DNA of 64,000 nt from Gemmatimonadota bacterium (GCA_003223455.1 QHVE01000020.1:80430-144429); one strand, 5' to 3'. Shown: positions 9,639-16,461, counted from the stretch's first letter. A program made the numbers and translations. The notes: generated by a model from the sequence alone, not told the origin.

Positions 9639-10169
9639 TCAGCGCAGTGTGTCGAGCGCGCCACCACCCTGAGACCCGGCGCGCTGGGCCCGCAGCTTCT
9701 CGGCGCGGCGACGGAGCTGCTCCTGGAGCGCCGCATACTTGGCACGCTGGAGTGGCGTCATGAACGCGCCGAGCGCACGCTGCTCGTCGATCTGAAGCTG
9801 GATACGCCGTCGCTGCAGCTCGAGCACCTGATCGAGGGACGTCGCGATACGCTGCTGATCGGCCGTCGGCCCGGCGAGAATCTCTCGCCGAAGCGCGAGC
9901 CGCTGCTCGCGTTCCTGTACGGCGAGCTGGCGACGCTGCGCGTCGAACGGGCGGCTCGCCTCCGCCAGCCTCGTCATCTGCTCGTCGGTCAGCCCGACGC
10001 GATTCTTCGTGATGCGCCACAGGCCCTGGCGCAACCGGGCTTCGAGCTGCTGCCGACGCGGCGCGACCTCGCCCGCACGCGGCCCCTGGCCCAGGCGACG
10101 TTGCTGTGCGGGCAGCTCACCCGCTGCCACCAGCATGATGAAGACGAGCAGCGGAAGAACGCGCCGCAT
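9639..10169 (-). CDS. Spy/CpxP-like periplasmic protein with LTxxQ motifs
   Basis: A 176-residue exported protein: signal peptide (MRRVLPLLVFIMLVAAGELPAQ), then an almost entirely helical, Arg/Gln/Leu-rich body with VGLTDEQMTRLAEA near the middle and MTPLQRAKYAALQEQLRRR near the end. Two LTxxQ-type motifs in a helical periplasmic protein define the Spy/CpxP family, chaperones and stress sensors of the envelope. The start overlaps the anti-sigma stop (TGATG), so it is the third gene of the ECF operon. By analogy it could be a regulon member or a modulator of the anti-sigma factor; that role is inferred. Confidence 0.7.
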   Translation of the reverse strand: MRRVLPLLVFIMLVAAGELPAQQRRLGQGPRAGEVAPRRQQLEARLRQGLWRITKNRVGLTDEQMTRLAEASRPFDAQRRQLAVQEREQRLALRREILAGPTADQQRIATSLDQVLELQRRRIQLQIDEQRALGAFMTPLQRAKYAALQEQLRRRAEKLRAQRAGSQGGGALDTLR

Positions 10170-10792
10170 CACTGGCCCTCCGAAGTCGGGCTGGACACGG
10201 GCTCGGTGCCTTCCACCTCCGTCGAGGGCAGACCGTCGAGCGACTCGATCCCCTCGACGAGTGCGGACAGCTCGCGGTCGCTCAAGTCCCCGATGGCGCC
10301 ACCCGCCATCGCCAGCTCGCGAGTCGGAACTACGGAAGCGCGCTCGCGCACGACTCGCGGTTGCGTTGGAGTGGTCGCCACCTCGGCGCGCCGCGCGACG
10401 GCAGCGGGCGCCGTGTCGCTCGGGGTCGCCGGCGCTGCGGCGACTCGCGGCCGCATGCGCTCCGTCGCGGCGGGGCTGCGACCGCGAAGCAGCGTGATCG
10501 ACGTCCCGCCGATGGCGATTGCAACGATAGCGGCCGCGATGCCCCAGCTCCTCGGCCACGCGCGGCGAATGGGCGCGCTGTAGGCAGGGATCGCGGCGAC
10601 GATCGCTTCCACGTCGACGCTGGGTGCGCGATGCATCGTCACGCGCATGGCGCGCAGCAGGGAGAGCTCCTCCCGACACGTCGCGCAACGTTCGAGGTGC
10701 GATTCGATCTCGCGTCGACGCGTCGCGCCGAGGCGGTCGTTGAGATAATCGGGCAGTGCGTCGCGCACGTCGCCGTTCGGACAATCAGTCAT
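10169..10792 (-). CDS. Zinc-type membrane anti-sigma factor
   Basis: Expected to hold the upstream ECF sigma factor at the membrane. The cytoplasmic N-terminus has the ZAS motif HLERCATC (H-x3-C-x2-C) within a DALPDYLNDRLGATRRREIESHLERC helix, followed by one transmembrane helix near residues 82-100 (WGIAAAIVAIAIGGTSITLL) and a Pro/Ala/Arg-rich periplasmic tail of about 100 residues. I start at ATG 10792, which overlaps the sigma gene by 8 bases, rather than at the upstream non-ATG codon. Gene order sigma/anti-sigma/Spy-like strongly supports the role; the inducing signal is not visible. Confidence 0.85.
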   Translation of the reverse strand: MTDCPNGDVRDALPDYLNDRLGATRRREIESHLERCATCREELSLLRAMRVTMHRAPSVDVEAIVAAIPAYSAPIRRAWPRSWGIAAAIVAIAIGGTSITLLRGRSPAATERMRPRVAAAPATPSDTAPAAVARRAEVATTPTQPRVVRERASVVPTRELAMAGGAIGDLSDRELSALVEGIESLDGLPSTEVEGTEPVSSPTSEGQ

Positions 10793-11339
10793 CGAGAAAC
10801 TCCTTGATCGCGCGCATCGCATTGTGATAGTGGACGCGAGCGGCCCCCTCCGTCGTGTCGACCGCCTCGGCGATCTCGCGGTACGACAACCCTTCGCTCA
10901 CCCGCAGCACGAACACCTCGCGCTGGGTCGGCGTCAACGCGGCCATCGCTTCGCGCAGTCGCACCTGTGTCTCGTCCGCGACGACGCCGTCCAGCGCATC
11001 GTATTCCGTCGCGGCGTCTCCCTCCTGTACTTCCACGTGCTCGCCTCTGCGTCGCGCTGCGCGGCTCCGATCCAGCACGAGCCGTCGCGCGATCGTGAAC
11101 AGCCAGGTGCGCAGCGAGCTGTCGCCCCGAAAGCCCTCGATCGACGCGAAGGCCCGCACGAACGTGTCCTGGATCACCTCGTCGACGTCGGCCCGCGCAC
11201 CGAGGCTCGCCACGAAGCGCGAGACTGCAGCAGCGTGCCGCTCGACCAGCAGCGTCGCCGCCCGCTGCTCTCCCGCCTTCCACCTTTCCACAAGGTCGAG
11301 GTCGGTCCGCTCATCGGTAGTGGGGGCGACGTCTGTCAT
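10785..11339 (-). CDS. ECF-family RNA polymerase sigma factor
   Basis: Sigma70 region 2 (VSRFVASLGARADVDEVIQDTFVRAFASIEGFRG then LRTWLFTIARRLVLDRSRAARRR) and region 4 (AALTPTQREVFVLRVSEGLSYREIAEAVDTTEGAARVHYHNA; described here by its helix-turn-helix) without regions 1.1 or 3, the ECF layout. Length 184 aa from ATG 11339; a TTG nine bases upstream is possible but less likely. It is the first gene of an operon with the zinc anti-sigma factor and a Spy-like protein. The linker between domains is acidic. A palindrome lies right in front of the start. Likely envelope-stress response, by neighbour content. Confidence 0.92.
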   Translation of the reverse strand: MTDVAPTTDERTDLDLVERWKAGEQRAATLLVERHAAAVSRFVASLGARADVDEVIQDTFVRAFASIEGFRGDSSLRTWLFTIARRLVLDRSRAARRRGEHVEVQEGDAATEYDALDGVVADETQVRLREAMAALTPTQREVFVLRVSEGLSYREIAEAVDTTEGAARVHYHNAMRAIKEFLDD

Positions 11340-11342
11340 GCG

Positions 11343-11358
11343 GTCCAACTCGTTGGAC
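11343..11358. promoter_or_regulatory. Inverted repeat in front of the ECF sigma gene
   Basis: GTCCAA-CTCG-TTGGAC, a 6-bp perfect inverted repeat, begins four bases upstream of the sigma ATG. It could be an operator in the divergent sigma/ugpQ region or an mRNA hairpin at the start. No regulator is identified. Confidence 0.3.
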
Positions 11359-13254: not shown

Positions 13255-13407
13255 CGACGACCCACTGAAGGCTCGGAAGGAGGCGGGTGGGGCGCTCATC
13301 GTCCAGTCGGCGTCCTGGTGACGTGTTGGCCTCTGGCTCGGTTAGGGAGGGTAGAAGGCAGACGTGCCGGCCCCGACCGGCGCGTGTCCGTGTTCTGCTC
13401 CTGAGCC

Positions 13408-14022
13408 ATGTCCAAGCCTCGCCCCCTGCAGCTCGTCAAGCCGGCCCCACTCTCCGACGCGCCGGATCCCGGCAGCGGCGCAGCGCGCAGCCTGCTCGTC
13501 AAGGCCGCGCAGCGTGGGGATGTTCGTGCCTTCGCCGAGCTCGTCGACGCGTACTATGCGCGCTGCCTGCGCTTCGCGATGCACATGCTGGCCAATCGGG
13601 GCGACGCGGAGGAGGCCGTCCAGGATACCTTCGTCCGTGTGTATCGCGCGCTTCCCGGCTATGAGGAGCGGGAGTCGTTCGAGCCGTGGCTCTTCCGGAT
13701 CCTCGCGAACCGGTGTCGCAGCGCAGGCGCGCGCGAGCGACGCCGCTCGGAGTTCGTGGAGTTCGGCGAGGTCCCGGAGCGCGTGACCGGTCACCGCCAC
13801 GACGAGACGTTCGCCTGGCGAGAAGAGATCTCGCGCGCGCTGCTGGCGCTCCCGGCGGAGCAACGTGAGGCGTTTCTGATGCGGCACGTGGAAGACCTGA
13901 CGTACGACGACATGGCGATCGCCACGGGCGCGGGCATCTCCGCGCTGAAGATGCGCGTGAAGCGAGCCTGCGACGCGTTGAAGATCCGGCTCACGGAGGA
14001 TCGGGGTGCACGACGAGACTGA
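13408..14022 (+). CDS. ECF-family RNA polymerase sigma factor (glycan-fold operon)
   Basis: Region 2 (AFAELVDAYYARCLRFAMHMLANRGDAEEAVQDTFVRVYRALPGY, then SFEPWLFRILANRCR) and region 4 (ALLALPAEQREAFLMRHVEDLTYDDMAIATG followed by ISALKMRVKRACDALKIRL) make this a clear ECF sigma; 204 aa including a proline-rich N-terminal extension of about 27 residues. First gene of a four-gene plus-strand operon: the next gene starts inside its last 17 bases. The partner lacks a zinc anti-sigma motif, so the regulatory mechanism is not a standard ZAS one. I see no convincing sigma70 promoter in the 150 bases upstream; autoregulation is possible. Confidence 0.92.
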   Translation: MSKPRPLQLVKPAPLSDAPDPGSGAARSLLVKAAQRGDVRAFAELVDAYYARCLRFAMHMLANRGDAEEAVQDTFVRVYRALPGYEERESFEPWLFRILANRCRSAGARERRRSEFVEFGEVPERVTGHRHDETFAWREEISRALLALPAEQREAFLMRHVEDLTYDDMAIATGAGISALKMRVKRACDALKIRLTEDRGARRD

Positions 14023-14614
14023 CGAGACGATCATCCGCATCGCCGCGGCGCTGCGCCCGCTGCCGGAGGTGGATCCAGCGCAGAAGGCACGCGTGCTGGT
14101 CGCGGTGGCGGCCGAGCGCGAGCGAGCGCGAGAGCGACGTCGACGCGTCGTGCAGATCTGGCGCGTCGCCGGTGGGGCGACGCTTCTCGCCGCGGCCGGC
14201 CTCGTCGTCGCAGTGTCGCTCCGCCTGCCGCCGGCGCGCGAAGGAGGTAAGGCGAGCACGCCAACGGTCGTCGCACCTGCCGCCGGTGCGCGCGCACCGG
14301 CGACCCTCGGCGCAACACTGGCGGGCGAAGCGCGGACGGCGGGATTCAAGACCGTGCAGGTCGTCTTCCGCGCTCCGGCCGCACGCCGGGTGAGCGTCGT
14401 CGGCGACTTCAATGCATGGGACACCGGCTCGGATGCAATGTCGCAGGATCCCGTGACCGGACTGTGGAGTCACACCCTCGTGGTCCGTCCTGGGCGACAC
14501 GTGTACGCATTCGTCGTCGACGACAGTCTGTGGATGCGCGATCCCCGCAGCCCAGCGGCTCCGGACGCGGATTTCGGCCGCCCGGGTTCGGTCCTTCTCG
14601 TCGGACAGCCGTGA
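14006..14614 (+). CDS. Membrane protein with C-terminal glycogen-binding (CBM48/E-set) domain; candidate anti-sigma factor
   Basis: A 202-residue type II membrane protein. The cytoplasmic N-terminus (about 50 residues, HDETDETIIRIAAALRPLPEVDPAQKARVLVAVAAERERARE) is short and helical and has no H-x3-C-x2-C; one transmembrane helix follows (VAGGATLLAAAGLVVAVSL, about residues 53-71). The periplasmic part ends in an 85-residue E-set domain: VQVVFRAPAARRVSVVGDFNAWD, GLWSHTLVVRPGRHVYAFVVD, WMRDPRSP, the pattern of AMPK-beta/isoamylase early-set glycan-binding domains. GTG 14006 overlaps the sigma gene by 17 bases. Position and topology suggest it restrains the sigma factor; glycan sensing is inference from the fold. 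Confidence 0.75.
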   Translation: MHDETDETIIRIAAALRPLPEVDPAQKARVLVAVAAERERARERRRRVVQIWRVAGGATLLAAAGLVVAVSLRLPPAREGGKASTPTVVAPAAGARAPATLGATLAGEARTAGFKTVQVVFRAPAARRVSVVGDFNAWDTGSDAMSQDPVTGLWSHTLVVRPGRHVYAFVVDDSLWMRDPRSPAAPDADFGRPGSVLLVGQP

Positions 14615-15327
14615 GCAGTCGACGCTGGAGCGTCTCGACCGCGCTCGTGCCGATGATCGTCGGGTTCGTGACGCCGATGGCGCTCGAGGCGCAGCAGGTC
14701 GCGTACGCGGCGACGGCGGTCTCCGCACTGGACAGTGTCACGCAGGCCGCGGTCGCTCGGGAGCTCGTCCGGGCGCGCACGCGTGGTCTACCGGTTCAAC
14801 CGCTCATGGCCAAGGTGCGCGAGGGGCAGATCAAGCGCGCCGCGCCGGAGCGAATCCGGATCGCGGTCGCCGCGCTGTCGGTCCGGCTCGACTCGGCGCG
14901 GTCGGCGCTGGGGCCGACCTCCACCGCCGCAGAACTCGTCGCGGGGGCGGACGCGATCGCGGCCGGCGTCGATCAGGAATCGCTGCGCACCGTGCGAACC
15001 GCGAGTGGCGCGCGCGATCTCGCTGCACCACTGGGCGCGCTCGCGCAGCTCGTCGCGAGTGGCGTCGAGGCTCGGCGCGCGACGCGCATGATCGTCGAGC
15101 TCCTGAAGAAGGACGCCGGTCCGCGCGAGCTGCTCGCATTCGGCATGGCGGTGGAGACGGATGTCGGCGCCGGGGTGCCGGCCGAGGAATCGGCGGTGTT
15201 CCGGCTGCGTGCGATCGAGACGCAAGGCGTCGGCAGCGAGCGTGTCACGGTCGCGGGTGCTCCGGACATTCCGCTCGGGCAAACGACCACGGGCAGGCCC
15301 TCCGGTGGGACGAAACGAAAGCCCTAG
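14611..15327 (+). CDS. Exported helical protein of unknown function in the glycan-fold ECF operon
   Basis: Not recognised. The GTG at 14611 overlaps the preceding stop (GTGA). Signal peptide VSSRRWSVSTALVPMIVGFVTPMALEAQQ, then about 210 residues of mostly helical sequence with three similar Ala/Arg-rich segments: LDSVTQAAVARELVRARTRGLPVQPL, ALVAGADAI-like region and LAQLVASGVEARRATRMIVELL. The repeated pattern of a helix, GLPV/GVE turn and second helix suggests internal repeats of a small helical bundle. Ends Pro/Gly/Lys rich. No cysteine or metal motif. Likely periplasmic and co-produced with the flanking CBM48-bearing proteins. Confidence 0.65.
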   Translation: MSSRRWSVSTALVPMIVGFVTPMALEAQQVAYAATAVSALDSVTQAAVARELVRARTRGLPVQPLMAKVREGQIKRAAPERIRIAVAALSVRLDSARSALGPTSTAAELVAGADAIAAGVDQESLRTVRTASGARDLAAPLGALAQLVASGVEARRATRMIVELLKKDAGPRELLAFGMAVETDVGAGVPAEESAVFRLRAIETQGVGSERVTVAGAPDIPLGQTTTGRPSGGTKRKP

Positions 15328-16461
15328 GTGAGGCGCGCGATCGCCTCCAGCATCGGCGGCCTGCTCGTCCTCACGGGGATGGGCAGGCCGCTCGGCGCTC
15401 AGCACCACGCTGCACTGGACGTCGGCGTGTCGGTGGTGCGTTTCCTCGACGAGAGCACGACGGTGGCCGGCCCCTCGCTCGGCCTGACGTCGTCGGCCGA
15501 CGGCCGGCGACTGTTCGGGCGAGTGAACCTCGGCGGTGTCGGAACGATCGGCGCCGCCTCCGGTTCCGCAACGGTCGTCGGCGGCGCGCGTGCGCCGGTC
15601 GGCGGGCGCTGGATCCTGGAAGGCTCAGGGGAGCTGTTCGGCGTTGCCGGCACGTCGGTGCACAGCGCCGTGGCCGCGACGGGCGCGGGTCGCGCGATCC
15701 GATTGCTCGGCGACGGCGGAATCTGGGCACGCGCCGCCGCATCGATGGCGCATCGCGAAGCCGGCGCAATGCCCGCGCAGGCGCTCGAGGCCGGGACGTG
15801 GTGGAGCTGGTCGCGGGTACGAGTGAGCGCGCTGGTGCTGGATCAGCACGCACAGGGGCAACTGTTCACCGGACCCCGGCGCGATCTCCTCGTCGGCACA
15901 GTGCCCGTGCACTATCAGGAAGGGACCGTGGATGCGCGGATCGAGAGCGACGCCTTCTCGCTCGATCTCGCGGCGGGCGTGCGACGCGATCCCGATGCGG
16001 CGTCGGTGTACGAGCCGACCGTCGAGCTCACGGCGGCGTTCTGGCAGTCGGCCTCGCGCGCGTGGACGATCTCGGTGTCGCGCCAGCCCCCCGATTGGGT
16101 ACGTGGTGCCGATGCCGCGGCATGGGTCTCCACGGGGATGCGATTCTACGAACCGCGGCCGGCGATGGCGCGCGCGGCGCGCATCCGGCCCGTCGTAGTG
16201 GTGGACTCGGGAGATGGGCCGCGCCGCGTCCGCGTGCTCGCACCGGGTGCACACACGGTCGAGCTGATGGCCGACTTCACGGACTGGACACCGGTGACAC
16301 TCACCCCCGGACGCGACGCGTTCGAAGGTACGATACCTCTCTCGCCCGGGACGCATCGCCTGGTCGTGCGCCTCGACGGCGGAGCGTGGCGACCGGCAGC
16401 GAACACGCCCGCCGTGGACGATGACCTCGGCGGGCGTGTGGGACTGCTGGTGGTGCCGTGA
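15328..16461 (+). CDS. Outer-membrane-type protein with C-terminal glycogen-binding (CBM48/E-set) domain
   Basis: Starts GTG immediately after the previous stop (15325-15327). Signal peptide (RRAIASSIGGLLVLTGMGRPLGAQ), then about 260 residues of alternating polar/hydrophobic strands rich in Gly, Ser and aromatic residues (WWSWSRVRVSALVLDQ, YEPTVELTAAFWQSASRAWTISVS, WVSTGMRFYE), typical of an outer-membrane beta-barrel. The last 90 residues form a second E-set domain: RRVRVLAPGAHTVELMADFTDWTPVTL, GTIPLSPGTHRLVVRLDGGAW. The GDFNAWD/ADFTDW correspondence with the gene two places upstream is striking. Function unknown; could bind a glycan at the barrel's periplasmic or surface face. Confidence 0.7.
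   Translation: MRRAIASSIGGLLVLTGMGRPLGAQHHAALDVGVSVVRFLDESTTVAGPSLGLTSSADGRRLFGRVNLGGVGTIGAASGSATVVGGARAPVGGRWILEGSGELFGVAGTSVHSAVAATGAGRAIRLLGDGGIWARAAASMAHREAGAMPAQALEAGTWWSWSRVRVSALVLDQHAQGQLFTGPRRDLLVGTVPVHYQEGTVDARIESDAFSLDLAAGVRRDPDAASVYEPTVELTAAFWQSASRAWTISVSRQPPDWVRGADAAAWVSTGMRFYEPRPAMARAARIRPVVVVDSGDGPRRVRVLAPGAHTVELMADFTDWTPVTLTPGRDAFEGTIPLSPGTHRLVVRLDGGAWRPAANTPAVDDDLGGRVGLLVVP

Follow-up and report, generated by a model that had tools for sequence, protein, structure and literature searches.

A four-gene extracytoplasmic function sigma factor operon from Gemmatimonadota in which two predicted envelope proteins carry AMPK-type E-set domains

Related sigma factor systems and the new locus

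The subject of this analysis is a four-gene operon for an extracytoplasmic function (ECF) sigma factor in a 64,000-nt stretch of a Gemmatimonadota genome (GCA_003223455.1, QHVE01000020.1:80430-144429; the whole stretch is called the window below). It is best introduced through the described systems that it partly resembles. One of these is the sigma-I/RsgI system of Clostridium thermocellum, in which the anti-sigma factor of sigma-I carries carbohydrate-binding modules (PMC4711584). The likeness lies in an autoregulated anti-sigma factor with one transmembrane (TM) helix and an extracytoplasmic module of carbohydrate-binding type, encoded beside the sigma gene. However, RsgI is a Gram-positive protein with its own N-terminal domain and with CBM3, PA14 or GH10 modules, and it comes without an outer-membrane barrel or helical partner. 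Pfam finds the RsgI N-terminal domain in none of the 57 members of the anti-sigma family studied here. Another relative is the ECF52 group, exemplified by SCO4117, in which a carbohydrate-binding domain is fused to the sigma factor itself (PMC5826349). Here too an ECF sigma factor is joined across the membrane to such a domain, but in ECF52 everything is on one polypeptide, a zinc finger is included and the distribution is limited to Actinobacteria.

Two Gram-negative arrangements are also similar. FecI-FecR-FecA has a comparable functional layout, with an ECF sigma factor, an inner-membrane anti-sigma factor and an outer-membrane protein. However, its outer-membrane protein is a TonB-dependent transducer, whereas the new operon encodes a predicted 14-strand barrel with a C-terminal E-set and an extra periplasmic helical protein. 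The sigmaE-RseA-RseB and AlgU-MucA systems share a zinc-free class I anti-sigma domain, seen here in remote homologues, and a periplasmic partner protein. They differ in that the operon described here has an E-set as the periplasmic domain, a barrel encoded in the operon itself and, in the window's protein, a shortened N-terminal segment.

A first-pass annotation of the window had stated that no described ECF system has this layout. None was found in the literature searched on glycogen-binding-type domains or DUF4382 together with sigma or anti-sigma factors, a search that did not extend to the 2021 ECF re-classification. The operon is real and widely conserved, and it is apparently undescribed. 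On balance, we favor the view that it encodes an autoregulated trans-envelope ECF sigma/anti-sigma module, one in which the barrel and helical proteins provide the input upstream of the pair.

Gene content, conservation and predicted proteins

The four open reading frames are present as the first-pass annotation placed them, on the + strand at 13408-16461 with near-zero spacing. They encode an ECF sigma factor of 204 aa (13408-14022), a candidate anti-sigma factor of 202 aa (14006-14614), an exported all-helical protein of 238 aa that belongs to no Pfam family (14611-15327) and a 377-aa outer-membrane beta-barrel protein ending in an E-set (15328-16461). The sigma and anti-sigma genes are coupled by a 17-nt overlap, and the next two junctions are a 4-nt overlap and 0 nt. 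On one side of the operon the rplU-rpmA pair runs divergently, and on the other a ribonuclease G gene is convergent with it (names read from sequence). The hidden Markov model check that had been proposed for the sigma factor returned Sigma70_r2 (5.9e-16) and Sigma70_r4_2 (3.1e-12).

Conservation was assessed from 173 sigma/E-set pairs, a sample gathered through the membrane protein and restricted to cases in which a sigma gene immediately precedes it. A helical gene comes after the pair in 167 of the 173 and the barrel gene is directly downstream in 122; in four more the barrel gene is just upstream of sigma. An alignment that includes one wrong-frame row (L180) did not enter the counts. The membrane protein or a relative is encoded by 170 of 256 good genomes of the window's phylum, and within the window's genus the operon stays beside rplU-rpmA and the ribonuclease gene. 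The same four families are also found at seven loci of a second phylum (that of a Balneolaceae genome), in the order sigma, anti-sigma, barrel, helical; matches to the helical gene there range from ~1e-16 to 6e-7. Because the same gene set recurs in a permuted order, the association argues for function rather than inertia. The first-pass annotation had made joint conservation in related genomes a test of its reading, and the genes do stay together. That they form one co-inherited operon is strongly supported by homology.

Variants of this arrangement were also seen. One class has the sigma, E-set anti-sigma and helical genes only (L032, L050, L053, L059, L063, L067, L070, L072-L074 and L048) and always comes immediately after genes of fatty-acid oxidation (thiolase, 3-hydroxyacyl-CoA dehydrogenase). 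At L031 and L068, a paralogous sigma/E-set anti-sigma pair has neither helical nor barrel gene and is followed by a gene for a TMEM260-like protein O-mannosyltransferase. In an Anaerolineales genome (L140, 1507-2851, a region that L096 also covers), the gene for a protein with sigma-70 region 2 directly precedes that for a 115-aa E-set protein, and from this case the sigma/E-set pairing may extend more widely. Bacteroidota proteins at L163, L167 and L174 have two to four tandem E-set domains.

The membrane protein consists of a cytoplasmic segment of ~50 aa with two predicted helices, one TM helix (after ~54 residues by hydropathy), a linker and an E-set at ~115-200. Its CBM_48 (1.8e-6) and AMPK1_CBM (2e-6) matches both exceed the Pfam gathering scores, which upholds the earlier view of a sigma factor coupled to a one-helix membrane protein with an E-set. 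That view also held that the protein lacks the zinc anti-sigma motif. Indeed, H-x3-C-x2-C occurs neither in the window's protein nor in any of 173 homologues, so they do not qualify for the ZAS subgroup. What, then, is the evidence that it is an anti-sigma factor? The main clue comes from the second phylum, where the homologues have a longer N-terminus. A profile of the seven proteins matches, in this region, RsiW (E 0.0011), MucA (E 0.52) and RseA (E 0.69) in the PDB and no chains other than anti-sigma factors, and one member of this group matches RseA_N at E 0.009. Because the N-terminus of these homologues matches solved anti-sigma domains, the assignment of the membrane protein as an anti-sigma factor is strongly supported by homology. 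In class I domains, helix 1 and helix 4 are the sigma4- and sigma2-binding elements and zinc is optional (Casas-Pastor et al., PMC7406223). In the window's branch the segment has shrunk to ~50 residues, and perhaps its two predicted helices correspond to these two.

The window also contains a second ECF operon, on the - strand at 9639-11348, which is of the conventional zinc type. It encodes an ECF sigma factor (10785-11348), an anti-sigma factor with a zf-HC2 zinc domain (10169-10822, E 3e-8) and a helical protein that resembles Spy/CpxP and is exported.

The AMPK-type E-set fold is a glycogen sensor in human cells. AMPK1_CBM is matched in all 57 anti-sigma family members and in 33 of 38 barrel family members; the match in the window's own barrel protein (E 4e-5) is slightly below the Pfam cut-off. 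Profile searches of the PDB agree with the E-set identity claimed earlier for both proteins: the anti-sigma family matches the carbohydrate domain of AMPK beta-1 (1z0m/1z0n, E ~1e-12), and the barrel family matches Sip2 at 1e-5 and AMPK beta-1 at ~1e-4. Only four AMPK1_CBM domains occur in this genome, all within systems of this kind. In a tree of these domains, the barrel E-sets from both phyla fall into a single clade (support 98/94) and the anti-sigma E-sets cluster apart, although 95 columns limit the resolution. Because the barrel type of both phyla shares a clade from which the anti-sigma type is separate, the tree indicates that the two E-sets are ancient lineages held together and not a recent duplication.

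The likeness to the AMPK beta glycogen-binding domain and CBM48 consists of the fold and two stacking tryptophans. In AMPK, W100, K126, W133, L146 and T148 touch beta-cyclodextrin, and mutants bound less glycogen (PMC2642990). The W100 equivalent in the anti-sigma family is W138, conserved in 100%, and the W133 equivalent is W176, which is tryptophan in 65%. The tryptophan equivalents in the barrel family are W320 (100%) and W354 (94%). In contrast, the K126 equivalent is lost from the window's proteins. Alanine takes its place in 73% of anti-sigma family members, the window's among them, and in the barrel family the position is mostly asparagine, with valine in the window's barrel protein. 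The T148 equivalent is variable and not conserved. Thus the window's proteins lack the full five-residue alpha-glucan site, and judged by these residues the predicted site is partial, with the aromatic platform retained and the polar contacts altered. A periplasmic, membrane-tethered context would be a further difference from AMPK.

The earlier description of a barrel-like outer-membrane protein ending in a second E-set agrees with an AlphaFold model built on a 38-sequence alignment, which has 14 long strands at 27-274 and a separate all-beta domain at 289-376 (mean predicted local distance difference test score, pLDDT, 89.6). The best Foldseek matches of the barrel are OmpG (E 4e-8) and CymA (E 1e-7), both 14-stranded and ~10% identical. 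As modeled, the resemblance to these porins is one of fold only, not of membership by sequence. A role as a TonB-dependent transducer was considered and rejected, given the 14-strand model, the OmpG/CymA matches and the lack of any TonB-receptor Pfam match in the window or the family. The protein ends in an E-set and hence has no C-terminal aromatic barrel signal. Because an even number of strands puts both barrel termini on one side, and because the membrane protein has a one-helix topology, both E-sets would be in the periplasm.

The third gene encodes an exported helical protein, as the first-pass annotation had it. Its AlphaFold model is all-alpha (pLDDT 86, and ~97 in the core), and both this protein and the barrel protein have a conserved A-Q junction where the signal peptide ends. 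No PDB fold matched it at E<=0.001, the only matches being designed helical repeats at E>0.05, and a Pfam scan of its family found no match to RseB or any other family.

A putative promoter and the DUF4382 gene

A putative sigma-autoregulated promoter, GTGAC-N17-GGTTA, precedes the operon on the + strand at 13318-13344, with a -35-like element at 13318-13322 and a -10-like element at 13340-13344. The motif was found de novo in the leaders of homologous sigma genes. In this pattern-free search the strict form, GTGAC-N16/17-GG(G/T)TA, is present in 17 of 81 leaders, compared with a mean of 0.0 (maximum 1) in dinucleotide shuffles. GTGAC alone is present in 72 of the 81, vs. 29 in shuffles. With an enlarged set, the motif precedes 31 of 172 sigma genes, but 0 of 171 helical genes and 0 of 122 barrel genes. 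When the barrel gene comes first in the operon, the motif is found in front of it at three of four loci (L064, L077, L086), two of them with a relaxed spacer. This distribution suggests that GTGAC-N16/17-GG(G/T)TA is the sigma factor's own promoter.

Upstream of sigma the motif also occurs on the reverse strand, and there it pointed to a DUF4382 lipoprotein gene that is transcribed divergently. Neither the motif nor this gene had been mentioned in the first-pass annotation. The motif is 35-47 nt before the start of the DUF4382 domain in 11 loci, where it reads GTGAC-N-GGGTA (L061, L065, L218, L233, L238, L243, L254, L256, L264, L265 and L272). DUF4382 genes also adjoin the second-phylum operon (L178, L183, L184). 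In relatives of the window's operon, this lipoprotein is therefore a probable fifth component or regulon member. The DUF4382 gene of the window's own genome (L278) has no strict motif in front of it. A wider regulon in this genome, as drawn from the strict motif, was considered and rejected because the matches are at chance level and one is inside aspS. The operon's own copy is the only one of the four strict genome matches shown to precede a gene start.

How a signal might cross the envelope

From the computed gene set, folds, conservation and promoter motif, we infer the binding, topology, signal and release mechanism as follows. The membrane protein would hold the sigma factor via its short zinc-free N-terminal segment, using its counterparts of helices 1 and 4, and its single TM helix would lead to the periplasmic E-set. 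The barrel would hang its own E-set into the periplasm, where the secreted helical protein could be a go-between. The trigger might be an event at the outer membrane: the barrel could meet a ligand or surface glycan, or its assembly could change. The contacts of the anti-sigma E-set in the periplasm would then shift and the sigma factor would be freed, probably via proteolysis. The freed sigma factor would then transcribe its own operon from the GTGAC-N16/17-GG(G/T)TA promoter and, in relatives, the DUF4382 lipoprotein gene as well. A possible arrangement, which we hold tentatively, is a relay in which the E-set of the inner-membrane anti-sigma factor and that of the outer-membrane barrel talk directly, through a common ligand or through the helical protein as linker, to control the ECF sigma factor. 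Such a relay would be shared by at least two phyla and would act through a shortened two-helix anti-sigma segment. The first-pass annotation had proposed a trans-envelope sensor in which a glycan, a cell-surface polysaccharide or an interaction between the two E-sets is coupled to sigma release; the zinc-free ECF/anti-sigma pair, the E-set in each of two envelope proteins and the conserved gene order lend this reading partial support.

Several observations do not fit an autoregulated trans-envelope module so easily. Pfam and NCBIfam recognize no anti-sigma domain in the window's membrane protein, and its cytoplasmic part falls far short of the length of a full class I domain. The top sigma/anti-sigma couplings are no more enriched in the cytoplasmic part than with permuted pairings, although the 173 pairs (Meff 128) are too few sequences for this mean-field direct coupling analysis. 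The strict motif is present in a minority of sigma leaders only, and in this genome it is at chance level outside the operon (four matches vs. seven for the reversed control). Finally, the barrel gene is absent near the paralogue sub-class adjoining fatty-acid oxidation genes and hence is not obligatory.

What if the E-sets are glycan sensors? In this scenario one or both would bind an alpha-glucan-like or surface polysaccharide and their occupancy would set the state of the anti-sigma factor, as the RsgI modules do for sigma-I in C. thermocellum. The homology to the AMPK beta carbohydrate domain (E 1e-12) points this way, as do the retention of both glycogen-binding tryptophans (W138/W176 and W320/W354), the residues kept at the K126 and N150 positions of several second-phylum barrel E-sets, and the precedent of anti-sigma factors with carbohydrate-binding modules (PMC4711584). 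However, the AMPK residues whose equivalents are lost (K126) or not conserved (T148) all mattered for binding, the tryptophans may be structural, and no carbohydrate-active genes were recognized among the recurring neighbors checked. We regard glycan sensing as rather unlikely. Assembly of the outer membrane might be monitored instead. The barrel would then mainly be a client or reporter. An unassembled barrel or its free E-set would engage or expose the anti-sigma factor and feed back on barrel production, comparable to the way RseA/RseB/DegS detect unfolded outer-membrane proteins. It would then make sense that the barrel gene is in the same autoregulated operon and is preceded by the motif when it is the first gene, that the homologous anti-sigma domains resemble RseA and MucA, and that a helical protein is available for an RseB-like role. 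Nevertheless, the end of the barrel protein lacks the C-terminal aromatic signal, the helical protein is not similar to RseB by Pfam or fold, and this model does not explain why both proteins conserve an E-set. We consider a homeostasis sensor distinctly improbable.

The E-sets might also be passive, structural modules only, in which case an ordinary ECF/anti-sigma pair would simply be followed by genes for two envelope targets that are unrelated. Accessory E-set domains are common, and the paralogous pairs without a barrel, or without barrel and helical genes (L031, L068), would be easy to understand. However, this does not account for the same four families being together in two phyla despite a different order, or for the barrel-type and anti-sigma-type E-sets each being retained as its own lineage, and we give it the least credence. 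The favored trans-envelope module, glycan sensing, assembly sensing and passive E-sets are not mutually exclusive.

Bacteria perceive their surface in large part through ECF sigma factors, only a minority of which have a known signal path. With the trans-envelope module as the working view, this operon offers a complete candidate path from the outer membrane through the periplasm and inner membrane to the promoter. It does so in a phylum that has received little study, and each genome has several paralogues. A glycogen-sensor fold of eukaryotic type is predicted to be used in envelope signaling, and the conserved putative promoter and probable fifth gene make the regulon directly testable.

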